DNA of 12,013 bases from Flavobacteriia bacterium (GTDB lineage Bacteria > Bacteroidota > Bacteroidia > Flavobacteriales > Flavobacteriaceae), in assembly GCA_003973375.1 (NCBI GenBank), contig QNYL01000135.1, positions 1 through 12,013 of the forward strand. Direction: 5' to 3'. Of this stretch, positions 1-12,013 are shown in pieces; within the stretch, counting starts at the first letter, position 1, and each line of letters starts with the position of its first letter. The translations under genes were made by a program, and so were the position numbers. Below the pieces are notes generated by a model. That model did no database searches and was not told where the DNA came from. It was given only the letters and a program-made list of their open reading frames with translations.

Positions 1-56
1 TGCCCAATATAATATGTGTCAAATCCCGGAGAATACAATATATAAACGTAGTACAT
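1..56 (-). CDS. GIY-YIG endonuclease, second copy (5' end only)
   Basis: This is the first 18 codons of a GIY-YIG gene that runs off the left edge. The start codon is the minus-strand ATG at 56-54, exactly 350 bases from the ATG of the complete copy at 406-404. The visible protein starts MYYVYILYS and reaches the YYIG part of the GIY-YIG motif, identical at the DNA level to the other copy. The stretch between its ATG and the preceding tRNA fragment is also identical. Whether the rest of the gene is intact cannot be seen. It is very probably the next unit of a tandem array. Confidence 0.8.
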   Translation of the reverse strand, partial: MYYVYILYSPGFDTYYIG

Positions 57-81
57 CTCTAATGCTTTTTTTATAAAAATA

Positions 82-103
82 GGGATATGACTTAACATAT
101 CCC
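82..103 (-). terminator. Terminator after the tRNA-like sequence, copy A
   Basis: A perfect 8-bp inverted repeat (GGGATATG / CATATCCC, 6-base loop) is followed on the minus strand by a T-rich run (TATTTTTAT). It lies just downstream of the tRNA 3' fragment and upstream of the second GIY-YIG start, and is identical to the hairpin at 432-453. Confidence 0.7.
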
Positions 104-109
104 CTCTTG

Positions 110-190
110 TACCTTGAGCGGGAATCGAACCCGCACTCTGTTGCCAGAATCCCGATCTTATCGGGACGCAGCTACCAATTCTCTCAACTT
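110..190 (-). pseudogene. tRNA-Leu-like sequence overlapping the GIY-YIG 3' end
   Basis: Bases 149-110 duplicate the variable arm, T arm, 3' acceptor strand and discriminator A of the tRNA-Leu-like gene at 532-460. The preceding bases also resemble a tRNA, although they code the C-terminus of the GIY-YIG protein. GAATTGGTAG (181-172) matches the D-loop of the neighbouring tRNA in the same reading frame. It is followed by a 5-bp anticodon-type stem TCCCG/CGGGA closing a 7-base loop ATAAGAT, with U33, a purine at 37 and anticodon AAG, a leucine anticodon. Against function: the 5' strand of the D stem is gone and the acceptor stem pairs at only about 5 of 7 positions (AAGTTGA with TCAAGGT). I call it a chimeric or degenerate tRNA. 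An intact tRNA is unlikely, and the palindrome could be a generic intergenic repeat that gives AAG by chance. Confidence 0.6.
150..166. repeat. 17-base palindrome at the GIY-YIG stop codon
   Basis: The plus strand reads TCCCGAT-CTT-ATCGGGA, a perfect 7-bp stem with a 3-base loop. The GIY-YIG stop codon (minus TAA, 160-158) lies in it and the duplicated tRNA fragment starts at the very next base. Palindromes of the CCCGAT...ATCGGG type are, from memory, common between flavobacterial genes. I cannot confirm that here and no second copy was seen in the window. Confidence 0.8.
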
Positions 191-406
191 CTCTTTCGAT
201 TTCCAGGATTTCAACTTATGCTCTCTTTGCATCGCTGCAGAACGAGTTTCAAATGATTCATAATAAACCATCTCCCATGGCCTGTAAGGTTTTGTTGACT
301 TGACGTATCCTGAATTATGACGCTTTAATCGTTTCTCCAATTCATTGGTCTGCCCAATATAATATGTGTCAAATCCCGGAGAATACAATATATAAACGTA
401 GTACAT
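158..406 (-). CDS. GIY-YIG endonuclease (UvrC/UPF0213-like, 82 aa)
   Basis: This is a single-domain GIY-YIG nuclease. It shows YVYIL at residues 3-7 and YYIG at 15-18 (the GIY and YIG halves), the catalytic-type Arg in LEKRLKRHN (23-31), the KPYRPWEMVYYE segment (39-50) and the metal-binding Glu in QREHKLKSWKS (E62). Its length is normal for these stand-alone proteins. The reading frame stays open upstream to 529, but those extra 41 codons are translation of the tRNA-like gene and terminator, so I place the start at the ATG at 406-404. A terminator hairpin lies between the tRNA and this gene and no clear TAnnTTTG promoter was found, so its expression is unclear. The last residues (RELVAASR) resemble the translated tRNA (AELVDALD). 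It probably cuts DNA, but target and role (selfish element or repair) are unknown. Confidence 0.85.
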   Translation of the reverse strand: MYYVYILYSPGFDTYYIGQTNELEKRLKRHNSGYVKSTKPYRPWEMVYYESFETRSAAMQREHKLKSWKSKEKLRELVAASR

Positions 407-499
407 CTCTAATGCTTTTTTTATAAAAATAGGGATATGACTTAACATATCCCCTCTTGTACCTTGAGCGGGAATCGAACCCGCACTCTGTTGCCAGAA
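351..499. repeat. Tandem direct repeat, copy B (350-bp period)
   Basis: This is the second copy of the 149-base repeat starting at base 1. Its right boundary (499/500) falls inside the tRNA-like gene, exactly where the anticodon-bearing segment is missing. In copy A the same boundary (149/150) is followed by a 17-base palindrome that contains the stop codon of the GIY-YIG gene. Confidence 0.95.
432..453 (-). terminator. Terminator after the tRNA-Leu-like gene, copy B
   Basis: A perfect 8-bp stem GGGATATG/CATATCCC with a 6-base loop is followed on the minus strand by TATTTTTAT. It starts seven bases after the end of the tRNA-like gene, the expected place for its terminator. It lies 25 bases before the GIY-YIG start codon. 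Confidence 0.75.
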
Positions 500-532
500 A
501 TCCAGCGCGTCTACCAATTCCGCCATCAAGGC
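460..532 (-). tRNA. tRNA-Leu-like gene lacking its anticodon (probable pseudogene)
   Basis: The sequence has a 7-bp acceptor stem (GCCTTGA / TCAAGGT), the D-arm typical of bacterial tRNA-Leu (GCGG AATTGGTAGA CGC), the 5' anticodon-stem strand CTGGA, a class II variable hairpin (TCTG-GCAA-CAGA) and a perfect T arm (GCGGG TTCGATT CCCGC), ending with discriminator A and no encoded CCA. At 73 bases it is too short for tRNA-Leu (about 84-87). CTGGAT is joined directly to the variable arm, so the anticodon and the 3' strand of the anticodon stem (about 12 bases) are missing. Reading it as a 73-base class I tRNA gives no good anticodon stem. The lost anticodon may have been CAA, judging by tRNA-Leu genes with this 5' half. 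That is inference. Confidence 0.7.
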
Positions 533-661
533 TTATTTATGAACATCTCTCAGTTTCCTGAGCTTTTCTTTTCCAATTCCTGATTTCCAGTATTTTTCCA
601 AAATATAGTCTACAGGTTTTGAAACTTTCCCCTTTTTAATACACCTATAAAGGTAAAATTT
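533..661 (-). pseudogene. Remnant of a second type of GIY-YIG gene
   Basis: A minus-strand reading frame without an ATG ends in TAA (535-533) directly against the first base of the tRNA-like gene. Its C-terminal part, EKYWKSGIGKEKLRKLR, resembles the C-terminal motif of stand-alone GIY-YIG proteins (REKY.K.GIGRE..KKL). The preceding GKVSKP is like the GKV.STK.RRP segment, and an internal piece seems lost between them. The N-terminal GIY-YIG core is not recognisable. It differs from the intact neighbour, which has WKSKEKLREL. I take it as a decayed, internally deleted gene. A chance open frame is possible, since the similarity was judged by eye. Confidence 0.45.
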
Positions 662-669
662 CGGGAGTG

Positions 670-677
670 CAAATATA
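670..677 (-). promoter_or_regulatory. Promoter -7 element for the tRNA / GIY-YIG locus
   Basis: The minus strand reads TATATTTG, a full match to the Bacteroidota -7 consensus TAnnTTTG. A TTTTG lies upstream (694-690), but the spacing of 12 bases is shorter than the usual -33 distance. The start would be about 135 bases before the tRNA-like gene, so the GIY-YIG remnant would form the leader. The rest of the 533-814 intergenic stretch holds only this, the remnant and the prs promoter. Confidence 0.5.
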
Positions 678-730
678 TATATTTTTAAGCAAAAGATAAT
701 ATCCTTTTCTGTAAGAATTTTATCAATTTA

Positions 731-765
731 TTTGGTTTCTCATCAAAATAAATTAACTAATTTTG
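731..765 (+). promoter_or_regulatory. prs promoter (TTTG / TAATTTTG)
   Basis: TAATTTTG at 758-765 matches TAnnTTTG. TTTG at 731-734 sits 23 bases upstream, at the long end of the accepted -33 to -7 spacing. The element is about 50 bases before the prs ATG. Confidence 0.55.
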
Positions 766-814
766 GGGCATAAATTACATTATTTTTCAACTCTCTAATT
801 TACAGTTATTTAAA

Positions 815-1756
815 ATGAGTTTACAAGTCCCAAATCCTAAAATCTTTGCATGCTCCCAAAGTACCATCCTCGCCCAAAGAATAGCTGACGAATATGGTAT
901 TGAACTTGGTCTTTCTAAAAAGAATATCTTTAGCGATGGTGAATTTCAGGTTTCCTTCGAAGAATCGATCAGAGGAAGAAGAATTTTTATTATCGGATCT
1001 ACCAACCCTCCCTCAGATAACCTGACCGAGATGTTACTGATGATTGATGCTGCCAAAAGAGCCTCAGCACGTCATATTACAGCAGTTATCCCGTATTTTG
1101 GATGGGCGCGACAAGACAGAAAAGACAAACCTCGGGTACCTATTGCCGCCAAGATGGTAGCAAAAATATTACAGGCTGCCGGTGCCACCCGTGTAATCAC
1201 AATGGATTTACATGCGGATCAGATTCAGGGATTCTTCGAGATCCCGGTTGACCATCTTTTTGCATCAACTATACTTTTACCTTATGTCAACAATTTGAAA
1301 CTTGAGAATCTTACCGTTGCTTCACCTGATATGGGAGGATCAAAAAGAGCTTATGCCTACTCAAAATATTTAAAAAGTGAAGTGGTCATCTGCTATAAAC
1401 AACGTAAAAAAGCCAATGAAATTTCTTTTATGGAATTGATCGGTGATGTAAAAGGAAGAAATGTAGTGATCGTTGATGACATGGTTGATACTGCCGGTAC
1501 CCTTACCAAAGCAGCCGATCTGATGATAGAAAAGGGAGCCTTAAGCGTACGCGCCATCGCCACTCATGCCATCTTATCCGGTAAAGCTTATGAGAACATA
1601 AACAACTCAAAATTAGAGGAATTGATCGTTACAGACACTATTCCGTTAAAACACGAAAATTCTAAAATAAAAGTTGTATCTTGCGCGCCCTTATTTGCGG
1701 AGGTAATGCACAGAGTTCAGAACAATACTTCCATCAGCGATAAGTTTATAATGTAA
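815..1756 (+). CDS. prs: Ribose-phosphate pyrophosphokinase (PRPP synthetase)
   Basis: The enzyme makes PRPP from ribose 5-phosphate and ATP in the cytosol, feeding purine, pyrimidine, NAD, histidine and tryptophan synthesis. At 313 aa it matches the usual class I length (about 315). Family motifs are in order: the ATP-binding FGWARQDRK loop (95-103), the catalytic and metal-binding DLHADQIQGFF (131-141), SPDMGGSKRA (170-179), and the PRPP-binding loop VIVDDMVDTAGT (218-229). The ATG at 815 gives the expected N-terminus. rplY follows after 25 bases without a terminator, so the two are probably co-transcribed, a pairing also seen as prs-ctc in other phyla. Confidence 0.97.
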   Translation: MSLQVPNPKIFACSQSTILAQRIADEYGIELGLSKKNIFSDGEFQVSFEESIRGRRIFIIGSTNPPSDNLTEMLLMIDAAKRASARHITAVIPYFGWARQDRKDKPRVPIAAKMVAKILQAAGATRVITMDLHADQIQGFFEIPVDHLFASTILLPYVNNLKLENLTVASPDMGGSKRAYAYSKYLKSEVVICYKQRKKANEISFMELIGDVKGRNVVIVDDMVDTAGTLTKAADLMIEKGALSVRAIATHAILSGKAYENINNSKLEELIVTDTIPLKHENSKIKVVSCAPLFAEVMHRVQNNTSISDKFIM

Positions 1757-1781
1757 CTAAATAATAATTTAAATTTAAACA

Positions 1782-2417
1782 ATGAAATCAATTACAATCA
1801 AAGGATCCCAAAGAGAAAGCGTGGGCAAGGCAGCGACCAAAGCCTTACGTAATGCTGGAAAGGTTCCCTGCGTATTATACGGAGGAGAAAAACCAATTCA
1901 CTTTTCAGCAGATGAAATTGCATTTAAGCACTTGGTTTACACTCCAAACGTTTATACCGCAATGATTGAACTTGAGAATGGCGACAAGTTTGAGGCTGTA
2001 ATGCAGGATATTCAATTTAATCCGGTTACCGACAGAATTAACCATATCGATTTCTATCAGTTATTTGAAGATAAGGAAATTACCATGAATATTCCTGTTA
2101 AATTAACAGGAAGTGCACCCGGTGTTATTGCCGGTGGTATTTTACGTTTCCCTAACAGAAAACTAAAAGTAAGAGCCTTACCTGCAAATTTACCAGATTT
2201 TATCAATGCCGATATTTCTACACTGAAAATTGGAGATAAAATCTATGTAACTGAAGTTCAGAATGATAAATATACAATCCTTCACCCTGACAATACCGTT
2301 ATATGCCAAGTTAGAATGGCACGTGCTGTTGCTGTTGTTGAAGATGAAGAAGAAGATGAAGATGTAGAAGGCGAAGAAGGAGCAACTCCTGCTGCTGAGG
2401 AAACTGCTGCAGAATAA
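1782..2417 (+). CDS. rplY: 50S ribosomal protein L25 / general stress protein Ctc
   Basis: This is a 5S rRNA-binding ribosomal protein of the long (Ctc/TL5) type. The N-terminal L25 domain covers about residues 1-90 ([33 protein letters not shown]). A second beta-rich TL5 domain spans about 95-180. The protein ends in a very acidic low-complexity tail ([15 protein letters not shown], about 185-200) and an Ala/Glu-rich end. That tail gives the GAA/GAT-rich DNA at about 2338-2380. Length (211 aa) is normal for the two-domain form. A terminator at 2441 ends the prs-rplY unit. Confidence 0.95.
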
Positions 2418-2440
2418 AGATAATTATCAGATCATATTTA

Positions 2441-2475
2441 AAAGCTGTCTTTTTAGGCAGCTTTTTTTATTTTTG
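2441..2475 (+). terminator. Rho-independent terminator after rplY
   Basis: The stem AAAGCTGTC / GGCAGCTTT (9 bp including one T-G pair) has a TTTTTA loop. It is followed by TTTT and, after one A, TTTTT. It closes the prs-rplY transcript 24 bases after the rplY stop codon. Confidence 0.85.
2468..2475 (+). promoter_or_regulatory. Possible promoter of the putative peptidase gene
   Basis: TATTTTTG matches the -7 consensus TAnnTTTG and lies inside the T-tract of the rplY terminator, 48 bases before the next ATG. No TTG was seen at the -33 position, and a T-rich tract can match by chance. Confidence 0.35.
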
Positions 2476-2523
2476 CTGAAACAATCCTGCAAAAGCAACT
2501 TATAAACTAAAAAAACAACATCA

Positions 2524-3414
2524 ATGAATAAATTTCTGTTTATCTTTCTGTCTTTTGCCTTACTTATAAATGGATACGGGCAAAATAACAGCTTTCCAAA
2601 AGATCCGCAAGAGGCAAAATTCATTACCCGGGATATTAAAAATTTCTGGACTGCCTTTGATGCTGTTGAATATTCAAAGAACAATCCGTTTGAAAATTAT
2701 ATAAGGAACGGCAGTCCCGGACTCCGGGGTTTTATTCCCAACAGGATCATAAATGCCGATTCTTTGTTATCAATGGTGCAAAGAAGAAAACAGGATTATA
2801 AAAAAATGAGAGGTATTGAAAAGCTGATAAAGGAAAAAGAGAAATTGATCAAACCCTATTTTTATGCTTTGGAATACTGGTACCCCTATGCTGTCTACCC
2901 TCCTGTTTATTTTGTTATTGGCCGGTATAACAGCGGAGGCACTTCTACTGAAAACGGACTAATAATTGGTGCAGAAAAACTAACCGGATTAGATCACCTG
3001 CCTGAATTGGTAATACACGAGTCAATACATTTCCAACAAAAATGGCCGGAAGGGGGTAATACAAATTTATTGCAACAATCTGTTTTAGAGGGTTCTGCCG
3101 ATTTTATTGCCGAACTGGTAACCGGAATTAAAGGAAACCTAAAAGCAAATAATTACGGAAATAAAAATAAAGACGAGCTCTGTAAGGAATTTGTTAAAAG
3201 AATGTATAAAGATGATCTGCAGGACTGGCTGTACGGAACCAGCGGAAAAGACAAACGGCCAAACGATCTGGGGTATTGGATTGGCTATGAAATTGTAAAA
3301 GCATATTTTGATAAAATGGAGGATAAAAAATTAGCTGTTAATCGTATTTTGAATATTGATGATTACAAAAGATTTTTAAAAGAGAGCGGGTACTTAGAAA
3401 AATATATGAAATGA
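2524..3414 (+). CDS. Secreted putative zinc metallopeptidase (DUF2268/DUF5700-like)
   Basis: The 296-aa protein starts with a Sec signal peptide (MNKFLFIFLSFALLINGYGQ, cleavage probably after about residue 18-20; no lipobox Cys), so it should act in the periplasm or outside. It has a gluzincin-type HExxH motif, HESIH (165-169), in a helix followed 20 residues later by EGSADFIAEL (E189, plausible third zinc ligand). The C-terminal GYWIGYEIVKAYFDK...IL.I.DY..FL..SGY region is like that of uncharacterised HExxH families DUF2268/DUF5700. The substrate is unknown and the family name is by resemblance only. It sits between rplY and pth, flanked by the rplY terminator and a 92-base gap, so it is likely transcribed on its own. 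Confidence 0.75.
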   Translation: MNKFLFIFLSFALLINGYGQNNSFPKDPQEAKFITRDIKNFWTAFDAVEYSKNNPFENYIRNGSPGLRGFIPNRIINADSLLSMVQRRKQDYKKMRGIEKLIKEKEKLIKPYFYALEYWYPYAVYPPVYFVIGRYNSGGTSTENGLIIGAEKLTGLDHLPELVIHESIHFQQKWPEGGNTNLLQQSVLEGSADFIAELVTGIKGNLKANNYGNKNKDELCKEFVKRMYKDDLQDWLYGTSGKDKRPNDLGYWIGYEIVKAYFDKMEDKKLAVNRILNIDDYKRFLKESGYLEKYMK

Positions 3415-3506
3415 CATGTTGAACTGATAATGACCTATAAATTATTAGCTTTACAAAAAGCATCAAAAAATATTTTTTTGCCCAAAAGGGTTTAAATATT
3501 AAAAAA

Positions 3507-4073
3507 ATGAAAAAATTCCTGATTATCGGACTCGGAAACATCGGCGATCAATACAAAAATACCCGGCATAACATCGGGTTTTCTGTTCTGGACAAACTTG
3601 CCGAAGAAAAAGAACTTCAATTCGAAACCAAAAAACTGGCCGATATAGCTTCTTTTAAACTCAAAGGGCGAACCTTTATCCTGGTAAAACCAAATACCTA
3701 TATGAATTTAAGCGGTAAAGCAGTAAAATACTGGATGGAAAAGGAAAAGATCCCGCTTGAAAATATTCTGGTAATCACCGATGATGTTAATATTCCTTTT
3801 GGCACCCTTCGTATCAAAGCCAGAGGAAGCTCCGGTGGGCACAACGGTGTTCAAAACATTAATGACATCCTTCAAAACCAAAATTATGCCCGCCTGCGTT
3901 TCGGTATTGGCGGCGAATACAAAAGAGGACAACAGATAGATTATGTTTTAGGTAAATGGACAGATGAAGAACTTAAAATACTGCCTGAACGTATTGAAAA
4001 AATAACAAAGATCATTCCTTCTTTCGGCCTGGCCGGAATAAACAATACCATGAATGAATTTAACGGAAAGTAA
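3507..4073 (+). CDS. pth: Peptidyl-tRNA hydrolase
   Basis: Pth releases peptides from prematurely dropped peptidyl-tRNA and so recycles tRNA; it is normally essential. At 188 aa it is standard length. Key features are GLGNIG (8-13, substrate-binding N11), NTRHNIGF with catalytic H21, KPNTYMNLSG (61-70, N68), DD at 92-93 (catalytic-type D93) and GSSGGHNG (107-114, N113). These correspond to E. coli N10, H20, N68, D93 and N114. The ATG at 3507 places GLGN as expected. It lies in the recurring prs-rplY-pth grouping but is separated from rplY by the peptidase gene. No perfect TAnnTTTG is seen upstream, only TATTTTTTTG at 3471-3480. Confidence 0.96.
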   Translation: MKKFLIIGLGNIGDQYKNTRHNIGFSVLDKLAEEKELQFETKKLADIASFKLKGRTFILVKPNTYMNLSGKAVKYWMEKEKIPLENILVITDDVNIPFGTLRIKARGSSGGHNGVQNINDILQNQNYARLRFGIGGEYKRGQQIDYVLGKWTDEELKILPERIEKITKIIPSFGLAGINNTMNEFNGK

Positions 4074-4078
4074 AAATC

Positions 4079-4103
4079 AGGGCTTCATTAAAAATGAAAC
4101 CCT
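4079..4103. terminator. Bidirectional terminator between pth and glmS
   Basis: The 10-bp stem AGGGCTTCAT / ATGAAACCCT has a 5-base loop and one imperfect pair (C-A on plus, T-G on minus, so the minus-strand hairpin is stronger). T-rich DNA follows on both sides. It lies six bases after the pth stop codon. Confidence 0.7.
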
Positions 4104-4127
4104 AATTTCTCATTTTTTTGAAAACAA

Positions 4128-4180
4128 TGAGCGGGTAAATACATCCGTATGAAACTTACACGCTCACTTCTATTTTTTTT
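4128..4180 (+). terminator. Second terminator downstream of pth
   Basis: TGAGCGGGTAA (4128-4138) pairs with TTACACGCTCA (4156-4166) with one mismatch. The 17-base loop itself contains a small ATAC/GTAT hairpin. A run of eight T ends the plus-strand side (4173-4180). It would stop plus-strand transcripts before they enter glmS antisense. Confidence 0.65.
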
Positions 4181-4187
4181 ACAGATG

Positions 4188-6041
4188 TTACTCCACCGTA
4201 ACAGACTTAGCCAGGTTTCTTGGCTGATCCACATTACAACCTCTCATCACCGCAATATAATACGATAAAAGCTGTAACGGAATGGTGGTTAGTAAAGGAG
4301 ATAAAGCTTCTTCTGTTTCCGGAATCTCGATCACATGATCGGCCATTTCCTTAACGGTAACATCCCCTTCGGTTACAATGGCAATAATCTTTCCGCTTCG
4401 GGATTTAATCTCCTGTATATTGCTCACAATCTTATCGTAATGCCCCTTATTGGTTGCAATTACAATTACCGGCATCCTGTCGTCAATCAGGGCAATAGGA
4501 CCGTGCTTCATCTCTGCAGCCGGATAACCTTCTGCGTGGATGTATGAGATCTCTTTTAATTTTAAGGCTCCTTCCAAAGCTACCGGGAAATTATAGCCTC
4601 TTCCCAGATACAAACAATTGGTCGACAACAAATATCTTTGAGCTATTTCTTTAACATGCATATCCACTTTTAACAACTGGGCCACCTTTTGCGGGATCAG
4701 TTCCATCTCCTGTAAATACAACCTGAAATCGGCACTGGTAATCGTTCCTTTTGCTCTTGCCAGCCTTAAGGCCATCAATGTAAGTACGGTAATCTGTGTA
4801 GTAAAGGCTTTGGTTGAAGCTACACCAATTTCCGGCCCGGCATGTGTATAAACCCCTGAATCATTGATTCTTGCAATAGACGAGCCTACCACATTACATA
4901 CACCAAAAACAAATGCCCCTTTCGATTTAGCCATTTTAATCGCTGCCAGTGTATCGGCAGTTTCTCCCGACTGGGAAATGGCAATTACAATATCTTTTTC
5001 GGTTATTACCGGATCACGGTAGCGGAATTCTGAAGCATACTCCACCTCAACCGGAATCCTTGCAAATTCTTCAAATGTGTATTCGGCAACCAGACCGGCA
5101 TGCCAGGAAGTTCCACAGGCCACAATGATGATTCGCTCGGCATTGAGAAATCTTTTCATGTTATTTTCCAATCCTGATATCTTGATAATACCCTGCTCCG
5201 GCAAAAGTCTTCCTCTGATCGTATCCGTTATCGCTTCAGGCTGTTCATGGATTTCTTTTAGCATAAAATGCTCATAGCCTCCTTTTTCAATCTGATCCAG
5301 GCTGAGTTGCAGTTGCTGAATGTTCGGATCTACTTCCTCATCATCCTGAATTTTATGAATTTTAACTTCCCGTCCTTTTTTAATGATTGCCATTTCACCA
5401 TCTTCCAGATAAATAGCATCCTTGGTATATTCAATAAAAGGAGAAGCATCTGAGGCTATAAAGAATTCGTTGTAATCCTTTCCTATTCCTATCGCGATCG
5501 GACTGCCCAGTTTAGCCACCACCATTTCATCCGGTTTTTCACTATCGAAAACCACAATAGCATAAGCGCCTACTACCTGATTTAAAGCTATTTGAACTGC
5601 CTCACCAAGTTTTACATCTTCCTGAATTTTTATTTCTTCTATCAGATTGACCAACACTTCTGTATCGGTATCCGACTTGAAAGTATATCCGCGATCTTTT
5701 AGTTCCTTTCTAAGGGAAGCATAATTTTCAATAATTCCGTTATGAACAATTGCAAGATTACCCGATTGTGAAAGATGCGGGTGAGAATTCAGATCGTTGG
5801 GAATACCATGGGTTGCCCAACGTGTATGGCCAATACCTATAACAGACTGGCCGGAAATATTTTCCCGAACTATTTCTTCTAAAACACTTACTTTTCCTTT
5901 TACTTTGGAGAGATTGATACTGTTTCCGTCATAAAGCATTACTCCGGCACTGTCGTAGCCGCGATATTCCAAACGCTTTAATCCGTTTATGATTATAGGG
6001 TATGCATCCCTATAACCAATATAACCGGTTATTCCGCACAT
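4188..6041 (-). CDS. glmS: Glutamine-fructose-6-phosphate aminotransferase (isomerizing)
   Basis: GlmS converts fructose 6-phosphate and glutamine to glucosamine 6-phosphate, the first step to UDP-GlcNAc for peptidoglycan and LPS. At 617 aa it is typical. The N-terminal class II glutaminase domain starts MCGITGYIG (Cys2 becomes the N-terminal nucleophile) and includes LEYRGYDSAG (24-33), HTRWATHG (72-79) and NGIIENY (101-107). Two SIS sugar-phosphate domains follow, with ACGTSWHAG (308-316) and AISQSGETADT (354-364), then the LEGALKLKEISYIHAEGYPAAEMKHGP region. The protein ends with the conserved NLAKSVTVE. It lies 59 bases after the DUF4270 gene on the same strand and has its own promoter-like element. 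The leader is far too short for a glmS ribozyme. Confidence 0.98.
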   Translation of the reverse strand: MCGITGYIGYRDAYPIIINGLKRLEYRGYDSAGVMLYDGNSINLSKVKGKVSVLEEIVRENISGQSVIGIGHTRWATHGIPNDLNSHPHLSQSGNLAIVHNGIIENYASLRKELKDRGYTFKSDTDTEVLVNLIEEIKIQEDVKLGEAVQIALNQVVGAYAIVVFDSEKPDEMVVAKLGSPIAIGIGKDYNEFFIASDASPFIEYTKDAIYLEDGEMAIIKKGREVKIHKIQDDEEVDPNIQQLQLSLDQIEKGGYEHFMLKEIHEQPEAITDTIRGRLLPEQGIIKISGLENNMKRFLNAERIIIVACGTSWHAGLVAEYTFEEFARIPVEVEYASEFRYRDPVITEKDIVIAISQSGETADTLAAIKMAKSKGAFVFGVCNVVGSSIARINDSGVYTHAGPEIGVASTKAFTTQITVLTLMALRLARAKGTITSADFRLYLQEMELIPQKVAQLLKVDMHVKEIAQRYLLSTNCLYLGRGYNFPVALEGALKLKEISYIHAEGYPAAEMKHGPIALIDDRMPVIVIATNKGHYDKIVSNIQEIKSRSGKIIAIVTEGDVTVKEMADHVIEIPETEEALSPLLTTIPLQLLSYYIAVMRGCNVDQPRNLAKSVTVE

Positions 6042-6059
6042 AATTTATTTGAGTTTGAG

Positions 6060-6080
6060 TTTGTTTCTGAAACAAATATA
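6060..6080 (-). promoter_or_regulatory. glmS promoter with an overlapping perfect palindrome
   Basis: The minus strand reads TATATTTG (6080-6073), a full match to TAnnTTTG, 31 bases before the glmS ATG. A perfect 17-base inverted repeat, TTTGTTTC-A-GAAACAAA on the minus strand (6076-6060), begins in the last four bases of the -7 element and covers the likely start site. It is followed by short CAAACT repeats. No TTG was seen at -33. The palindrome could be an operator or a leader hairpin, which is inference. Confidence 0.5.
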
Positions 6081-6100
6081 ATTAATATGTACCTATAACG

Positions 6101-7714
6101 CTATTTTGAATAAAATATTTGAAGTTTTAAACGCTTGCTATCTGACTGTGGAAGATTTCCGTGAAGAATAACACCTTTTGGTATATAACTGTAATCTTTT
6201 ACAATTGAATCATGCTCTTCAAAATTTGGGGTGTCTGTGGGATTAAACGATTTTAAAACCAGTGGTTCAGGCCCTCTGTCGGGATCGTTCAACAGTTTTG
6301 AAATGTACGTTGTAATTCTGAATTTATAATAATCCGGATCACCGTTATCATCATATACCAATCTGCCATCAAACACATCAAAACCATTGGCTTGCAAATC
6401 TTCAAGTATGGTATTGGAATTTTTTTTATATAAAAACAACTTATTTGGTGCTTTGCCTTTTTGCAGGGTTTTATCTACTTTAAGGATCAGATTTGCCTCA
6501 TTGATCAGATAGTTCTTATCACGCAATTCCTGAAGACTTTGAGGAGTAAACAAATTGATTATTGCATTTGAACCTGCAGCTCCCTGAATATAAAGTTCTT
6601 TTTCACCATTATTTGTATCAGGATTCGTTATTGCATTTTCTGCCGGTGTTCCGGAATAATCCCTTGTATAATTGGCTGCACTGGTGCCTCCGGCATTAAA
6701 ATTTATCGATTTTTTGGTATGAACAGTAACTCCATCTTCCCCGGTAATTCCATCACCGTCAAGATCTTCACCATCTGCTTCATTCTTGATCTCTTCCTGT
6801 GTATAATAAATGGTCATTCGGGTACGAATAGGTGACAAATTCATTAAACTTCCATCCACACCTATGGCTTCTACCACCAAGCCTTTAAAATAATGAACAA
6901 AATTATCATTTGAATCAAAATACGGAGCATTTTGCTGGTCGAGAAAGCGGGTCTTAAAAAACTGCTTATCAAGATAAAATTTCATGGAAGGACTTGAGTT
7001 TTTAGCTTTGATCGTATCAATATCATCTACTGTTGAAGGATCACCATCCAAAAATCTTCTTTCCACATACAATACCGTATCATTTCTGTTGGGTTTAAAA
7101 TCACCAAAATACAATTCAGCTCCTTTCTGGAATTCCTTATCGGAATAATATACCATTCTTTTAGATGGATCCTCAGGATCGAGCATATTTAAAAAAGTTT
7201 CCAGTTCATTTACCTTGATCTGAAAAGAAATATCCTGATTTCCATAGATGGAATCGATAGTAAAACTTGGAACTCTAATTTTATTGCTGTCATCATCCAG
7301 AATAACTTCTCCTGTTTCCGGATCATAGGCGTTTTGGAGAGAATCTTTTGTAGAAAAATAAGGGATATCAAGAACAACAAGATCTATTACAGCATTTTCT
7401 CCAAAATCCGCTCCTGTGGGTGGAAGAATCAACTGAGTAACCATATCGGCTTTTACATATCCAAAATTAGGATTTCTGTTAACCCCAAGTAGTGCCAACG
7501 GACTCGCATTACGATTATTATTATCAACCCTTGAAGCTTCTACATTTACGTTATAGGCAACCACTTCAACAAGCGTATCTCCAACCTTAAATGCACCATT
7601 GTCAATCAGGTTGACACCTATATTTTCAATATCCCTTTCACAAGCTGAGATGGCAAAAAAAAGCAAAAGTAGAATTCCTACATTTTTAATAATGCCTGCT
7701 GAAATTTTTAACAT
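6101..7714 (-). CDS. DUF4270 family outer-membrane-type lipoprotein
   Basis: The 537-aa lipoprotein has a hydrophobic signal (GILLLLFFAISAC) whose lipobox ISAC puts the lipidated Cys at about residue 25. The start of the mature protein, ERDIENIGVNLID, and the mixed beta-rich body with acidic Asp/Gly loops (DGEDLDGDGITGEDG) fit DUF4270, a Bacteroidota family of unknown function usually found near glmS and the short glgA. The recognition is from overall features and neighbourhood. The start is the only ATG before the signal peptide. It is 19 bases downstream of the glgA-like gene, so likely the same transcript. Confidence 0.8.
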   Translation of the reverse strand: MLKISAGIIKNVGILLLLFFAISACERDIENIGVNLIDNGAFKVGDTLVEVVAYNVNVEASRVDNNNRNASPLALLGVNRNPNFGYVKADMVTQLILPPTGADFGENAVIDLVVLDIPYFSTKDSLQNAYDPETGEVILDDDSNKIRVPSFTIDSIYGNQDISFQIKVNELETFLNMLDPEDPSKRMVYYSDKEFQKGAELYFGDFKPNRNDTVLYVERRFLDGDPSTVDDIDTIKAKNSSPSMKFYLDKQFFKTRFLDQQNAPYFDSNDNFVHYFKGLVVEAIGVDGSLMNLSPIRTRMTIYYTQEEIKNEADGEDLDGDGITGEDGVTVHTKKSINFNAGGTSAANYTRDYSGTPAENAITNPDTNNGEKELYIQGAAGSNAIINLFTPQSLQELRDKNYLINEANLILKVDKTLQKGKAPNKLFLYKKNSNTILEDLQANGFDVFDGRLVYDDNGDPDYYKFRITTYISKLLNDPDRGPEPLVLKSFNPTDTPNFEEHDSIVKDYSYIPKGVILHGNLPQSDSKRLKLQIFYSK

Positions 7715-7733
7715 AAAGATCTTCGATTTTTTA

Positions 7734-8546
7734 TTATTGTAATACTTCGTTTAAGTAAAAATTAGAATAAAGTTCGGATAGGTTTTCATTTTGTTCATGG
7801 TCGAGTACCGGAATACTTAAGCTGTCTATTGTGTTTACCAGTTCTTCAGGTAGTTCTTTATTTCCTTTGATAACTGCATCTGAATTCAATATAGCCATCT
7901 TCATCATACAATTCTCACCGGATTCTTTAAGTACCGCAAGCTTTTCCATATCAATATTATCAAAGTTGATCTTTTCAAGAAGGTTCTCTTTATTAACAAA
8001 TTTGTCAAAAGATTCGTTATAAACAGAAGTAACAATCTTACTTTCCGAGAAAAGCGGATCATTTTTATAATAAGACCTGATATATAAAGGTACCAGAGAG
8101 GCTAACCAACCATGTACATGAATAATATCGGGGGCCCATTTTAACTTCTTAACAGTTTCAACAACACCTTTTGCAAAGAAAATAGCTCTTTCGTCATTAT
8201 CTTCAAACAGATTTCCTTCCTCATCTTTTAATACCGCCTTACGCTTAAAATAATCTTCATTATCAATAAAATAAACCTGCATCCTTTCTTTAGGAATAGA
8301 AGCCACTTTAATAATCAGAGGCATATCTAAATCATTGATTATCAAATTCATACCCGATAATCTAATCACCTCATGCAGCTGATGTCTTCTCTCATTGATC
8401 ACTCCAAACCGGGGCATGAACATCCTGATCTGAACTCCCTGGCTGTGCATAGCCTTAGGCAGGTCAAAAGCAATTCTAGAAATATCGTTTTCGGGTAAAT
8501 AGGGTACTAATTCAGAAGAAACATATAGTATTCTCTTATCTTTCAT
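7734..8546 (-). CDS. Short glycogen/starch synthase-like protein (GT5 N-domain only)
   Basis: The 270-aa protein resembles only the N-terminal half of GlgA. It shows the ILYVSSEL start, DIIHVHGWLASLVPLYI (compare GlgA DIVHAHDWHT...) and a KIVTSVYNESF strand matching the GlgA TIHN region. The ADP-glucose-binding K-x-G-G loop that normally follows SSE is replaced by VPYLPENDISR, and the C-terminal Rossmann domain with its E-x7-E catalytic region is absent. Full GlgA is about 480 aa. It is therefore doubtful as a working glycogen synthase, although, from memory, such short forms recur in Flavobacteriaceae. I chose the ATG at 8546-8544 (MKDKRILYVSSE). An open frame extends to 8732, but it would run through the promoter and into panC. 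Confidence 0.75.
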   Translation of the reverse strand: MKDKRILYVSSELVPYLPENDISRIAFDLPKAMHSQGVQIRMFMPRFGVINERRHQLHEVIRLSGMNLIINDLDMPLIIKVASIPKERMQVYFIDNEDYFKRKAVLKDEEGNLFEDNDERAIFFAKGVVETVKKLKWAPDIIHVHGWLASLVPLYIRSYYKNDPLFSESKIVTSVYNESFDKFVNKENLLEKINFDNIDMEKLAVLKESGENCMMKMAILNSDAVIKGNKELPEELVNTIDSLSIPVLDHEQNENLSELYSNFYLNEVLQ

Positions 8547-8560
8547 CAACCTTTCATTTT

Positions 8561-8578
8561 GTAATTGTGCAAAATTAC
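8561..8578. promoter_or_regulatory. Overlapping divergent promoters of glgA-like gene and panC
   Basis: The near-palindrome GTAATTGTGCAAAATTAC pairs at 8 of 9 positions. On the minus strand it holds TAATTTTG (8577-8570), a full match to TAnnTTTG, for the glgA-like gene. On the plus strand it holds TAATTGTG (8562-8569), one mismatch, for panC. The two -7 elements are back to back, so polymerases could hardly bind both at once. No clear -33 TTG was found for the minus promoter. Confidence 0.5.
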
Positions 8579-8646
8579 GAAAAATATATGTAATTTCCGG
8601 CCTTAAATCAAAGTTCAAAGGCTTATTAACATTTTTTAACGTAACT

Positions 8647-9489
8647 ATGATAGTTTTCAAAGAGGTAGAAACTCTAACCAAATATATATCAAAAATAGAC
8701 AAAACCCATACGATTGGTTTTGTTCCAACCATGGGCGCCCTGCATAAAGGTCACCTTTCACTGATCAAAAGAGCAAATGATGAAAATGACTTTACCGTAG
8801 TGAGTATATTTGTAAATCCTACACAATTTGACAAAGCTGAAGATCTAAATAAATATCCGAGAACGCTGAATACCGACCTTGATTTGCTTGAAAAAGTAGA
8901 TTGTAACATCGTTTTTGTGCCTTCCGTTCAAGAGGTTTACCCGGTAAATGCAACTTCTGAGATATTTAATTTTGCCGGACTCGACAAATATATGGAAGGC
9001 CTTTTCAGGGAAGGACATTTTGACGGAGTAGGGACCGTTGTTAAACGATTACTCGAAATAGTAAAGCCGGATAATGCCTATTTTGGCGAAAAGGATTACC
9101 AGCAGCTTCTTATCATTAAAAAAATGGTGGAAACAGAAAAACTGCCTGTTAACATTATCGGATGTGATATATACAGAGAACCTGACGGACTCGCCATGAG
9201 TTCAAGAAATATAAGACTTTCAAAGGAACAACGCAAAGAAGCTCCGCAGATTTTTAAAACACTTAACGAGGCAAAAGAAATGTTTAAAAACAGTAGTATT
9301 TCTGAGGTTAAAGCTTATGTTGAGCAGGTCTTTCAAAAAAACAAATTACTCGAACTGGAATATTTTGAAATTGCTGACGCCTCAAGCCTAAAGCCCGTCA
9401 CTACAAAGAAACCAGGAGAAAAATACCGTGGGTTTATTGCTGTTTTTGCCGGAAAAATCAGGCTTATTGATAACATTGCTCTGAATTAA
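8647..9489 (+). CDS. panC: Pantothenate synthetase (pantoate-beta-alanine ligase)
   Basis: PanC joins pantoate and beta-alanine with ATP to give pantothenate, the coenzyme A precursor. At 280 aa it is standard. It shows the nucleotidyltransferase motif PTMGALHKGH (27-36, H33 and H36), FVNPTQF (55-61), FREGHFDGVGTVV (120-132), FGEKDYQQ (146-153) and REPDGLAMSSRN (177-188), the last two contributing substrate and ATP contacts. The start ATG is preceded by no clear SD. panD follows after 34 bases, so the beta-alanine supplier and user are encoded together. Confidence 0.97.
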   Translation: MIVFKEVETLTKYISKIDKTHTIGFVPTMGALHKGHLSLIKRANDENDFTVVSIFVNPTQFDKAEDLNKYPRTLNTDLDLLEKVDCNIVFVPSVQEVYPVNATSEIFNFAGLDKYMEGLFREGHFDGVGTVVKRLLEIVKPDNAYFGEKDYQQLLIIKKMVETEKLPVNIIGCDIYREPDGLAMSSRNIRLSKEQRKEAPQIFKTLNEAKEMFKNSSISEVKAYVEQVFQKNKLLELEYFEIADASSLKPVTTKKPGEKYRGFIAVFAGKIRLIDNIALN

Positions 9490-9523
9490 GTATCTTTACA
9501 GCCTAAAATGATCTTTAGAAAAA

Positions 9524-9874
9524 ATGTTTGTTGAAGTTGTAAAATCAAAAATACACCGGGTTAGCATTACCGGTTCTGAGTTGAATTATGTGGGAAGTAT
9601 TACCATTGACGAGGATCTGATGGATGCTGCAAATTTAATTGAAGGTGAAAAAGTTCATATTGTTAATGTAAACAATGGTGAACGGCTGGTTACTTATGCA
9701 ATCAAAGGTGAAAGGAAAAAAGGAGAGATCATCCTAAACGGCCCGGCTGCCCGGAAAGTGGCCAAAGGAGACATCATAATTATCATTTCCTATGCCATGA
9801 TAGATTTTGAAGAAGCCAAAAAATTCAGGCCTTCAATCGTTTTTCCAAACGAAAAAGATAATTCACTTACCTGA
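9524..9874 (+). CDS. panD: Aspartate 1-decarboxylase precursor
   Basis: PanD makes beta-alanine from aspartate for pantothenate synthesis. The 116-aa proenzyme cleaves itself between G24 and S25 (YVGSIT) and turns S25 into the pyruvoyl cofactor. Conserved residues are at the family positions: K9, H11, Y22, R54, T57 and Y58, plus the LNGPAARK segment. Length is normal with a short extra C-terminal tail (after about residue 105). The gene lies in an operon after panC, and the next gene starts five bases after its stop. Confidence 0.97.
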
Positions 9875-9879
9875 TCCCC

Positions 9880-10851
9880 TTGAATAAAAAAACAAAAAAA
9901 ATCATCTTTACCTTAGTCCCTATTTCTTTGGGACTGCTTTTGATCTGGTATTCGGTTTCCAAACTCACTCCTGAAGATATCAAAGCGATCAAGAACTCAT
10001 TCCGCACAGCGAATTACTGGTGGGTAATGCTCTCTTTGCTTTTTGGTATTTTAAGTCATTTTTCCAGGGCATACCGCTGGAATTATATGCTGGAACCAAT
10101 GGGGTATAAACCTAAATTTCCCAATACCATTATGGCCGTGCTGGTAGGATATCTGGTAAATCTGATCGTGCCACGGGCTGGTGAGATCGCAAGGGCTACA
10201 GCCATTTCAAAATATGAGAATATCCCTATAGAAAAGGCCATTGGAACCATAGTTTCTGAAAGAATCGCCGATGTGATCATGTTACTCGGAATTATCGCTA
10301 CGGCTTTTTTTCTGCAAACTGAACTCTTAACAAGATATCTGTTTAAAAATGATGAGAACAGCAGTAGTTATTCTTATTATATTATGGGAGGCCTGATTGT
10401 TCTGGGTGTCATTTTTTATATGATCATACAAAAATCAAGCAATCCTTTTATTGTAAAGATCCGTGAGTTTATCAACGGACTCATCCAGGGAGTGATGAGT
10501 ATCTTCAAGATGAAGAAAAAATGGGCCTTTATTTTCCATACATTTTTTATCTGGCTGATGTACGTTTTGATGTTCTATGTTGTAACTTTTGCCTTGCCGG
10601 AGACCTCTAACCTGCCTTTTGGGGCGATTATTGTTGGTTTTGTGGTGGGTGGTTTAAGTATGGCTCTTACCAATGGCGGACTCGGAACCTATCCGGTATT
10701 TGTTGCCAGTGCAATAACCCTTTATAATGTTCCGGAAAATCCGGCTCTGGCCTTTGGATGGATCATGTGGACCGCTCAAACACTGATGGTACTGTTCTTT
10801 GGCGGATTGTCATTTATCATTCTGCCGCTTTACAATAAAGATAAAGTATAG
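9880..10851 (+). CDS. LPG synthase transmembrane / flippase-like membrane protein (UPF0104)
   Basis: The 323-aa integral inner-membrane protein has about eight hydrophobic segments (roughly residues 9-27, 45-65, 84-100, 128-148, 165-182, 214-236, 246-272 and 283-312). The HFSRAYRWNYML segment after the second helix, VGYLVNLIVPRAGEIARA and the late NGGLGTYPVF motif are characteristic of the lysylphosphatidylglycerol synthase TM domain family (AglD/UPF0104). It lacks the cytosolic aminoacyl-transferase domain of MprF, so aminoacylation of lipids is unlikely; lipid transport is a guess. The start is TTG (9880-9882), as the next ATG lies after the first helix. Five-base spacing to panD suggests translational coupling. 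Confidence 0.85.
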   Translation: MNKKTKKIIFTLVPISLGLLLIWYSVSKLTPEDIKAIKNSFRTANYWWVMLSLLFGILSHFSRAYRWNYMLEPMGYKPKFPNTIMAVLVGYLVNLIVPRAGEIARATAISKYENIPIEKAIGTIVSERIADVIMLLGIIATAFFLQTELLTRYLFKNDENSSSYSYYIMGGLIVLGVIFYMIIQKSSNPFIVKIREFINGLIQGVMSIFKMKKKWAFIFHTFFIWLMYVLMFYVVTFALPETSNLPFGAIIVGFVVGGLSMALTNGGLGTYPVFVASAITLYNVPENPALAFGWIMWTAQTLMVLFFGGLSFIILPLYNKDKV

Positions 10852-10854
10852 ATC

Positions 10855-11760
10855 ATGCACAAATTTTACAGCAACGGAAAACTATTGCTTACCGCAGAAT
10901 ATGTAGTACTCGACGGTGCAAAAGCATTGGCTTTACCTGTAAAATTCGGACAAGAACTCAGGGTAGAAAAAATACAAGATCCTGTATTGAAATGGAGGAG
11001 TTATAAGAAAAACGGTAAGATCTGGTTTTCTTGTAATTTTAAGTTAAAAGACCTCTCTTTTACTGAAGAAACCGATCAGTTAACAGCTTTGACACTGCAA
11101 AATATATTAAAAGAAACCCGTGTTCTGAACCCCGGCTTTTTACATCCTACTCAGGGATCTCTTGTGGAAACTTTCTTAAATTTCCCACGTGACTGGGGGC
11201 TTGGTACTTCCTCAACCCTGATCAACAATATTGCGCAATGGGCCCGGGTAAATCCTTATACTTTATTATACAAAAGCTTTGGCGGAAGTGGTTATGACAT
11301 TGCCTGTGCACAACACGATTTTCCCATCCTTTTTCAGAAAAAAGAAGAGGAACCCCTTGTTGAAGAAGTGAATTTTAATCCGGATTTTAAAGATCAGTTG
11401 TTCTTTGTGTTTCTGAACAAAAAACAGATCAGCAGTAAAGAGATCAAAAAATACAAAGCTGAAAAAAAAGATCTGAGACCGGTAGTGGAGAAAATTGATA
11501 TCCTCACAGAGGAAATGATCACTTGTAAAAAACTAAACGATTTTGAAAAGATCCTCGCAACGCACGAAGAAATCATAGCTTCAGTGATCAAAAGAGAACC
11601 GGTTCAAAAAAAGCTTTTCCCCGATTATTTCGGCCAGACCAAAAGTCTGGGAGCCTGGGGAGGCGATTTTATTCTGGCAACAGGAAATGAGGATACCCCG
11701 GAATATTTTATTAAAAAAGGATATCCCACCCTCCTGCCCTATAAAAAAATGATCCTTTGA
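10855..11760 (+). CDS. GYDIA family GHMP kinase
   Basis: The 301-aa GHMP-superfamily small-molecule kinase has N-terminal YSNGKLLLTAEYVVLDGAKALALP (5-28, substrate-side motif), the glycine/serine-rich ATP loop GLGTSST (115-121), and the motif GSGYDIA (144-150) that names the family. A C-terminal SLGAWGGDFILA segment (about 269-280) corresponds to GHMP motif 3. GYDIA proteins are a Bacteroidota group thought to act like mevalonate or phosphomevalonate kinases in isoprenoid synthesis; the substrate is not shown by sequence alone. It starts three bases after the stop of the membrane protein gene and its stop overlaps the start of the next gene, so all belong to one operon. Confidence 0.85.
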   Translation: MHKFYSNGKLLLTAEYVVLDGAKALALPVKFGQELRVEKIQDPVLKWRSYKKNGKIWFSCNFKLKDLSFTEETDQLTALTLQNILKETRVLNPGFLHPTQGSLVETFLNFPRDWGLGTSSTLINNIAQWARVNPYTLLYKSFGGSGYDIACAQHDFPILFQKKEEEPLVEEVNFNPDFKDQLFFVFLNKKQISSKEIKKYKAEKKDLRPVVEKIDILTEEMITCKKLNDFEKILATHEEIIASVIKREPVQKKLFPDYFGQTKSLGAWGGDFILATGNEDTPEYFIKKGYPTLLPYKKMIL

Positions 11761-12013
11761 AACAGCAGGTAGTCATCATCGGCGGAGGCCCTGCCGGATT
11801 TTTTACAGCGATCACTATGGCTGAAAGAAATCCTGATCTGCAGATCATCCTTCTTGAAAAAAGCGATAAGGTACTTCAAAAAGTAAAGGTTTCCGGTGGA
11901 GGCCGTTGTAATGTTACCCATGCCTGTTTTACCCCTCAGGAACTGGTTGAATTTTACCCGCGCGGAAAGAAAGAATTACTCGGACCTTTTCACACATTTA
12001 TGACCGGAGATAC
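11757..12013 (+). CDS. NAD(P)/FAD-dependent oxidoreductase, BaiN/HI0933 family (5' part)
   Basis: The first 85 codons of a flavoprotein are visible, cut by the right edge. The protein starts MKQQVVIIGGGPAGF with the Rossmann FAD-binding GGGPAG (9-14). The acidic E34 (LLEKS) for the FAD ribose comes next, then VSGGGRCNVTH (45-55), a hallmark of HI0933-like/BaiN proteins. I place the start at TTG (11757-11759), which overlaps the GHMP kinase stop codon (TTGA arrangement); the next ATG (codon 21) would lose the FAD loop. The reaction is unknown; members reduce diverse substrates. Confidence 0.85.
   Translation, partial: MKQQVVIIGGGPAGFFTAITMAERNPDLQIILLEKSDKVLQKVKVSGGGRCNVTHACFTPQELVEFYPRGKKELLGPFHTFMTGD

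Follow-up and report, generated by a model that had tools for sequence, protein, structure and literature searches.

Why is the 3' part of a tRNA-Leu gene found twice, 350 bp apart, on either side of a small GIY-YIG nuclease gene, and is this arrangement peculiar to one contig or the trace of a mobile element? The stretch of DNA that we analysed, which we call the window, is positions 1–12,013 of the forward strand of contig QNYL01000135.1 from Flavobacteriia bacterium (GCA_003973375.1). It makes up all of contig C35 (12,013 b), from a 2.09-Mb genome that is in 315 contigs and 75.7% complete. From comparison with related loci, an element of about 350 bases, consisting of a GIY-YIG gene, a tRNA piece and a hairpin, appears to enter bacterial tRNA genes and to leave them whole.

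The repeat unit at the contig end

Window positions 351–499 are identical to positions 1–149 at a spacing of 350, and the following features make up the repeat and its surroundings:

459–532, minus strand: tRNA-Leu(CAA)-like gene with 11 nt of the anticodon arm missing (ARAGORN, as tRNA-Gln; Rfam; intact copy in the congener G001)
459–499, minus strand: tRNA-Leu 3' part, variable arm to discriminator, copy 1, the same as 109–149 (repeat comparison)
432–453, minus strand: terminator-like hairpin in the spacer between tRNA and gene, then a T-rich stretch (perfect inverted repeat; sequence)
158–406, minus strand: GIY-YIG nuclease gene, 82 codons, stop included (ORF; PF01541, E 1.9e-19; 1zg2, 1ywl and SLX1 as relatives of the family profile)
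167–181, minus strand: D-arm-like stretch within the gene's 3' end, with 87% identity to tRNA positions 506–520 (sequence comparison)
150–166, minus strand: palindrome TCCCGAT...ATCGGGA (17 nt) at the place of the anticodon arm (inverted repeat; same hairpin in the congener G001)
109–149, minus strand: tRNA-Leu 3' part, copy 2, a pseudo-tRNA (repeat comparison)
82–103, minus strand: terminator-like hairpin, copy 2 (350-bp repeat)
3–56, minus strand: start of a second GIY-YIG gene, 18 codons, cut by the contig end (sequence)
533–627, minus strand: probable 3'-end relic of a further GIY-YIG gene, of the mirror type described below, before the tRNA (match to the gene at L051)

Read along the minus strand, the tRNA (532–459) is followed by the hairpin (453–432), the GIY-YIG gene (406–158; ATG at 404–406, stop at 158–160, 82 aa), the D-arm-like stretch (181–167) that falls inside the end of the gene, the palindrome (166–150) and the tRNA 3' part (149–109), after which come copy 2 of the terminator-like hairpin and the 18 opening codons of the second gene. 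The right edge of the repeat, between 149 and 150 and again between 499 and 500, is the junction of hairpin and anticodon arm. Base 1 is the contig end, where the left copy of the unit is cut, and what can be seen is one complete unit and 149 bp of its neighbour; we infer that the array in this assembly exceeds 1.4 units. The unit contains one long ORF, the GIY-YIG gene, and no integrase gene, and Rfam at its gathering threshold finds tRNA and no other family in the window, a result on which we rejected a group I intron in tRNA-Leu. The original prediction had described a 350-bp period, the minus-strand order of tRNA-Leu 3' part, terminator, 82-codon GIY-YIG gene and next 3' part, and a unit free of recombinase and intron; sequence identity, the coordinates of the parts, and the single long ORF together with the Rfam result bear these points out.

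ARAGORN labels 459–532 as tRNA-Gln(CTG). In the congener G001, an intact tRNA-Leu(CAA) lies at the same prs-linked place, and the window copy is without 11 nt of its anticodon arm; on this comparison 459–532 is a tRNA-Leu minus those 11 nt, the identity that had been predicted for it. The deletion is either a mutation or an assembly error, and among the matches in the window's incomplete (75.7%) genome there was no second tRNA-Leu(CAA). The same parts are found in G001 on two contigs, one ending at the gene start and the other beginning within the gene, which probably belong together. In three further genomes (G002, G003 and G005), tRNA-Leu(CAA) is intact at the locus, with nothing behind it among the matches that the protein search listed. 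In front of the tRNA-Leu of the congener G002 there is a degenerate GIY-YIG match (E 5e-4, three stops) at the same place as the window relic, and G003 and G005 resemble G002 there by eye. Over 18–19 residues, the relic itself shares 79% identity with the L051 gene (E 3e-6 in a comparison with just five sequences). The intact window gene clusters with genes that lie at tRNA-Leu in four other genomes, three of Flavobacteriales and one of Saprospiraceae (SH-aLRT 81).

tRNA adjacency belongs to one clade of small GIY-YIG genes

Protein matches were present in 38 genomes among 60 relatives. We fetched 80 regions, which cover most of the listed places with about eight weak ones left out, and the first tree was made from 85 of 101 domain hits, each at least 58 aa long. 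A branch with support 99/98 splits this tree into 36 rows, among them every one of the 21 that adjoin a tRNA, and 49 rows of which none does. By locus, and counting a gene as adjacent when a tRNA lies on the same strand at most 260 nt away, 20/27 are tRNA-adjacent in the clade as compared to 0/40 in the sister clade, with 7 further loci on the sister side that lie below the profile cut-off standing outside the 40. The idea that every small GIY-YIG gene is tRNA-linked was rejected on the sister-clade counts (0/40 loci, 0/49 rows).

A profile of 12 clade members (A1) at E<=1e-14 matched 159/393 genomes of the order and 160/296 of the phylum; these are counts of protein matches, and tRNA neighbours were checked for 20 loci of the phylum set, 19 of them positive. 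With matches in 160/296 phylum genomes, the element may therefore be both very common and very small. tRNA adjacency was found in 56/60 and 19/20 loci of two hand-picked samples, taken mostly from the strong end of the list with some preference for arrays, and in 66/80 of the best 80 of 476 confirmed relatives from a scan of named genomes. A further piece of the same tRNA, usually a 5' or 3' part on the opposite side of the gene, accompanied 51/56, 58/66 and 18/19 of the adjacent loci in the samples of 60, 80 and 20, and 13/20 in the first-tree clade, as compared to 1, 0, 0 and 0 in the four samples for a reversed-tRNA control. Thus homologues do show regular tRNA association and duplicated tRNA ends, the lack of which the original prediction had named as a finding that would count against it. 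Misses lay at contig ends in 10/14 cases of the 80 sample and in 4/7 of the first-tree clade; away from contig ends, no tRNA was found at clade loci L064, L073 and L095, at three of the 60 loci and at four of the 80.

The clade adjoins tRNAs of many kinds, in several bacterial phyla. Outside Bacteroidota, a tRNA piece and a hairpin are present at L248 (Armatimonadetes), L253 and L274 (Chloroflexi), L255 and L258 (Zixibacteria), L277 (Moraniibacteriota) and L310 (Calditrichaeota), loci for which binning errors are possible because they are metagenome-assembled. Some copies carry the ARAGORN labels SeC, Stop or Gln. That the same arrangement recurs in homologues suggests that the window pattern is more than chance.

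Two mirror-image types carry a hairpin in a tRNA copy

The genes fall into two mirror-image types, with 69 in type A and 29 in type B when array copies and a few double assignments are included, and 45 and 22 when one is taken per locus. The window locus is outside the 45 because its shortened tRNA failed the position filter, and L169 is outside because of its full-length tRNA copies.

In type A, the order is that of the window: tRNA, terminator, gene, D-arm copy, hairpin and tRNA 3' piece. The piece starts at linear position 41–46, just behind the anticodon arm, in 31/45 loci and at 51–73 in the others. A perfectly paired stem, at least 6 bp long, lies in the 40-nt stretch that runs up to the sixth base of the piece in 40/45 loci as compared to 4.3% of shuffles. 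The outer six bases of the stem are TCCCGA in 22 loci, TTCCGA in 6 and TCCCGC in 3, and the other arm is changed to match. In type B, the order is tRNA 5' piece, hairpin, a few more tRNA bases, gene and complete tRNA; the 5' piece ends at 22–24 in 16/22 loci, and strict stems are found in 13/22 as compared to 6.6% of shuffles. We rejected a single palindrome for all loci: type A mostly has TCCCGA or TTCCGA arms, and type B often has CCTGCC..GGCAGG or CCCGCCCG..CGGGCGGG. A second element in the window's own genome (L002 1–479, on G000:C103) is of the mirror type and lies before tRNA-Ala(GGC), again at a contig end, with a tRNA 5' piece broken by a palindrome, then the GIY-YIG gene, then a complete tRNA.

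Tandem arrays are present in single-contig genomes, with five genes in L216 (G136) and L370 (G736) and three in L217 (G336) and L374 (G685); a further array, L219, has four genes on a 1.76-Mb contig. At L169 (1027–2164), the array units hold a complete tRNA-Val(GAC); the pseudo-tRNA there resembles the neighbouring tRNA-Val(TAC). In the pseudo-tRNAs of L177, L050, L165 and L192, another hairpin is inserted into the displaced tRNA piece, within its T arm.

Occupied and empty sites at tRNA-Ala

The original prediction had looked to empty and occupied tRNA loci for the ends of the element; both exist, and we compared them at tRNA-Ala. In one genus, 53/61 genomes had a tRNA-Ala(GGC) match. Among 30 such loci, 6 have an adjacent clade gene, 2 have a gene-free hairpin pseudo-tRNA (L329 and L337) and 22 have neither. 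Elsewhere in their genomes, L329 and L337 are accompanied by 6 and 3 profile matches; since 23/30 genomes have at least one, the gene-free loci are weak evidence for action in trans. Gene-free hairpin pseudo-tRNAs stand directly before tRNA-Ala at L327, L167, L177, L329, L331 and L337, and at L327, L167 and L177 they form rows of two or three with a spacing of about 82–85 nt.

For terminators, we compared twelve occupied tRNA-Ala loci (those six and six fetched earlier) with the 22 empty ones. The front terminator, between tRNA and gene, is nearest to that of another occupied locus in 10/12 (score at least 41 in 9) and to that of an empty locus in 2. The rear terminator, behind the pseudo-tRNA, matches that of an empty site in 5/11; in the remaining 6/11, two are like their own front terminator, one is like both and three are like nothing. 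Because some occupied sites thus combine an element-type front terminator with a native rear one, the element seems to rebuild the tRNA that it enters.

In the clearest pair, an occupied locus (L331) and an empty locus (L323) of the same genus have upstream neighbours that are 91.6% identical and downstream neighbours that are 90.5% identical. Between these neighbours, L331 has an 88-bp insertion (a hairpin pseudo-tRNA) before the anticodon arm and a 358-bp insertion (the gene unit) behind it, the edges of both being ambiguous within repeated tRNA sequence. An insertion is thus present in one relative and absent from another at the same site, as for a free-standing homing endonuclease gene, and the alignment fits a unit with its own tRNA end and terminator better than it fits a plain duplication of native sequence. 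A foreign tRNA 3' half as a sign of insertion is uninformative at tRNA-Ala because several occupied and empty genes are identical; the Leu locus fits by eye.

The protein is kept intact and its lineages follow tRNA kind

The window protein matches PF01541 with E 1.9e-19 and 70.2 bits (cut-off 22.6). Y5, Y16, G18, R26 and E62, which we take to be the conserved catalytic residues, are invariant across 12 aligned clade members. Among solved structures, the family profile matches 1zg2 (6.4e-14) and 1ywl (2.3e-12), then SLX1 (about 1e-5). For genes at the same tRNA, pN/pS is 0.13 (5 loci), 0.18 (8) and 0.17 (7), and copies within arrays have few differences, of both kinds. Judged by these substitution ratios, selection keeps the protein intact.

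On a tree of 157 genes, which has 74 columns only and many weak forks, the tRNA label changes 55 times as compared to 99.3 in 60 shuffles (minimum 92); the test used 133 rows and 29 labels as called, with six relabelled by hand and a few doubtful. The type A/B label changes 20 times on the same tree as compared to 34.3 in shuffles. Gene lineages follow the kind of tRNA, with a contribution from vertical descent. We rejected carriage by phages or plasmids, for which 5 phage and 2 plasmid records gave matches below 60% identity.

Dispersed palindromes

The palindrome TCCCGAT..ATCGGGA was found in 18/20 genomes at 1–31 sites, with a control that gave 0 in 18 genomes and 1 in 2, and the window's genome has 2 sites only. 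The type B palindrome was found in 4/20 genomes. Palindromes of the TCCCGATAGCTATCGGGA type occur at 15 to 31 sites each in G207, G317, G223 and G343, and the listed sites are spread along the chromosome in the first three. G207 had no profile match at E<=1e-14 among the matches listed in the order sample. Six sister-clade genes away from tRNAs (L059, L077, L080, L083, L103 and L119) have a palindrome on each side, for example ATTCCTGC..GCAGGAAT, a count made with no control; a link of small GIY-YIG proteins to dispersed palindromes is possible.

A proposed homing-like tRNA element and its alternatives

We propose that the repeat unit is a minimal mobile element of about 350 bp that is targeted to tRNA genes, has a single-domain GIY-YIG nuclease as its sole protein and would move in a homing-like way. 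On the sequence comparisons above, we give this reading a probability of roughly one half. A type A element would consist of a tRNA 3' part, its own terminator, the gene, a short D-arm copy and the hairpin, and would enter directly behind the anticodon arm, on its 3' side. The host tRNA would retain its 5' part and receive the 3' part of the element, and the native 3' part and terminator would be pushed behind the hairpin. A type B element would be the mirror, with hairpin, short piece, gene and tRNA 5' part, entering near position 22. The nuclease, which would drive the movement, would cut the cognate tRNA gene or its hairpin copy, and recombination repair with the tRNA pieces as homology arms would install the element. 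The repaired tRNA would be whole, with the element behind or before it, and tandem arrays would come from repetition or from crossing-over between tRNA pieces.

This proposal builds on the anatomy, the regular association, the occupied and empty sites and the selection for an intact protein established above. Speaking for homing-like movement are the restriction of adjacency to one clade (21/36 versus 0/49 rows, 20/27 versus 0/40 loci, and the further samples), the regular piece of the same tRNA with a reversed-tRNA control near nil (1, 0, 0), the fixed start of the type A piece (31/45) with its adjacent stem (40/45), the L331/L323 insertions and the terminator pattern (front 10/12, rear 5/11), pN/pS of 0.13–0.18 and lineages that follow tRNA kind (55 versus 99.3). 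However, that last agreement could also come through vertical descent, the displaced-native pattern is absent from 6/11 tRNA-Ala rear terminators, and some clade loci away from contig ends have no tRNA. Any target site in the anticodon region would persist in the intact tRNA, which leaves the avoidance of self-cutting a puzzle; changed anticodon stems, considered as protection, are seen by eye in 2/12 distinct occupied tRNA-Ala loci (L173 and L191). The conserved hairpin, too, has no explanation from homing. It may block re-cutting, prevent the extra copy from functioning as a tRNA, or serve as an end recognised by the enzyme. Such an end is central to transposition with hairpin ends, a reading that we consider possible but rather doubtful, in which the GIY-YIG protein would recognise DNA hairpins and the unit would end at the palindrome and at the anticodon arm of the tRNA gene. 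Every jump would then leave a hairpin pseudo-tRNA, and gene-free pseudo-tRNAs would be non-autonomous members. The hairpin does close off the unit on its outer side in type A and type B alike; its arms pair perfectly in 40/45 type A loci, a change in one being matched in the other, and it is also seen beyond Bacteroidota (L248, L253, L255, L274, L277 and L310); gene-free hairpin pseudo-tRNAs exist at L329 and L337, in genomes with profile matches elsewhere (6 and 3); some hosts have palindromes of this class scattered through the genome, and palindromes flank some sister-clade genes on both sides; and the profile also matches SLX1, a structure-specific nuclease. Yet the gene-free cases number two only, strict stems are found in only 13/22 type B loci, the palindrome pattern has only 2 sites in the window's genome and the sister-clade palindromes were counted with no control. 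We tentatively suggest that these elements could form an undescribed transposon-like class in bacterial tRNA genes, with a small hairpin-recognising GIY-YIG protein, a tRNA rebuilt at each jump and a hairpin pseudo-tRNA left behind, and related small GIY-YIG proteins may serve dispersed palindromes that have no known transposase.

The frequency of tandem arrays would also fit an origin by local duplication, in which slippage or unequal crossing-over doubled a tRNA with a resident GIY-YIG gene, palindromes then invaded the spare tRNA copy and the gene was simply carried along. The terminators in front of the gene and at the rear are indeed alike in the window, L327 and L345, but at tRNA-Ala the front one is nearest to other occupied loci and the rear one is nearest to empty sites in 5/11. 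The gene is also wholly absent from empty sites, a single clade occurs at many different tRNAs and the hairpin holds one position and sequence class. Local duplication, which the L331/L323 alignment appears to disfavour, is in our judgement unlikely. We think it most improbable that the pattern is an assembly artefact at a contig end with a GIY-YIG gene beside a tRNA by coincidence. Base 1 is a contig end in a fragmented genome and the 11-nt deletion in the window tRNA is odd, but the repeat edge coincides with the junction of hairpin and anticodon arm, these parts recur in the congener G001 (on two contigs), and the arrangement is that of arrays in single-contig genomes (L216, L217 and L370).

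Taken together, these data support the original prediction of a minimal element that uses tRNA sequence as its boundary and amplifies in tandem, with arrays found in single-contig genomes, and they add to it the D-arm-like stretch, the hairpin, a mirror-image type, the apparent rebuilding of the tRNA and the occurrence at many other loci. Annotation may hide the element behind 'GIY-YIG nuclease' and odd tRNA calls. A homing-like element of this kind would offer a chromosomal model of movement into essential RNA genes, would explain part of the tRNA fragments in genomes and would yield a candidate enzyme for short palindromes.

Comparison with known systems

Among the papers listed by searches of open-access PubMed Central, judged mostly on title and abstract start, none describes these elements. 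Islands, ICEs and phages that are integrated at tRNA genes use an integrase, unlike the 350-bp unit, which has no recombinase gene. They resemble the element in having a complete tRNA on one side and a partial copy on the other, and in the excerpts of the account used here they are large, about 9–23 kb (PMC9897764). REP/RAYT systems and CGTC-tagged palindromes, the latter apparently without a dedicated transposase (Di Nocera and co-workers, PMC3733652), share with the element short palindromes beside a nuclease gene, and in some hosts of the element these may also be scattered; RAYTs are tyrosine (Y1) transposases, in contrast to the GIY-YIG gene of the element and its palindrome inside tRNA copies (PMC3733652). 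The domain of the element protein is common, according to the excerpted source, to the small single-domain proteins UPF0213/YhbQ/YazA and to SLX1 (PMC7017083); unlike the element clade, the sister GIY-YIG clade of the same genomes has no tRNA association.

SegB of phages T4 and T6 is, in the excerpts of two accounts, a free-standing GIY-YIG homing endonuclease; segB of T4 is flanked by tRNA genes, and T6 gives rise to tandem units of tRNA-Tyr and segB that depend on recombination functions, with microhomology between the tRNA 5' end and the segB 3' end (PMC13096335, PMC2988022). The element is likewise an intron-less GIY-YIG nuclease gene among tRNA genes, but it is chromosomal and small, whereas SegB is described there as phage-borne and larger. 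Neither a hairpin pseudo-tRNA nor a carried tRNA part that rebuilds the target is described in those excerpts (PMC13096335, PMC2988022). On the part of the literature seen here, the closest analogue of the type A logic is the mORFs of fungal mitochondria (Glomus atp6, atp9, cox2 and nad3; Allomyces atp6), in which an endonuclease gene arrives together with a foreign 3' end for its host gene and the native one is pushed downstream (PMC3630166). The supply of a new gene end with displacement of the native one is matched at tRNA-Ala by the front (10/12) and rear (5/11) terminators and by L331/L323, and is absent in 6/11 rear terminators. The hairpin would be explained by neither the SegB nor the mORF precedent, as far as these sources describe them. 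In contrast to mORFs, which in the excerpt are found in mitochondrial protein genes and have no hairpin, the element has a bacterial tRNA gene as its host, carries a hairpin and has a mirror type with the tRNA 5' part.
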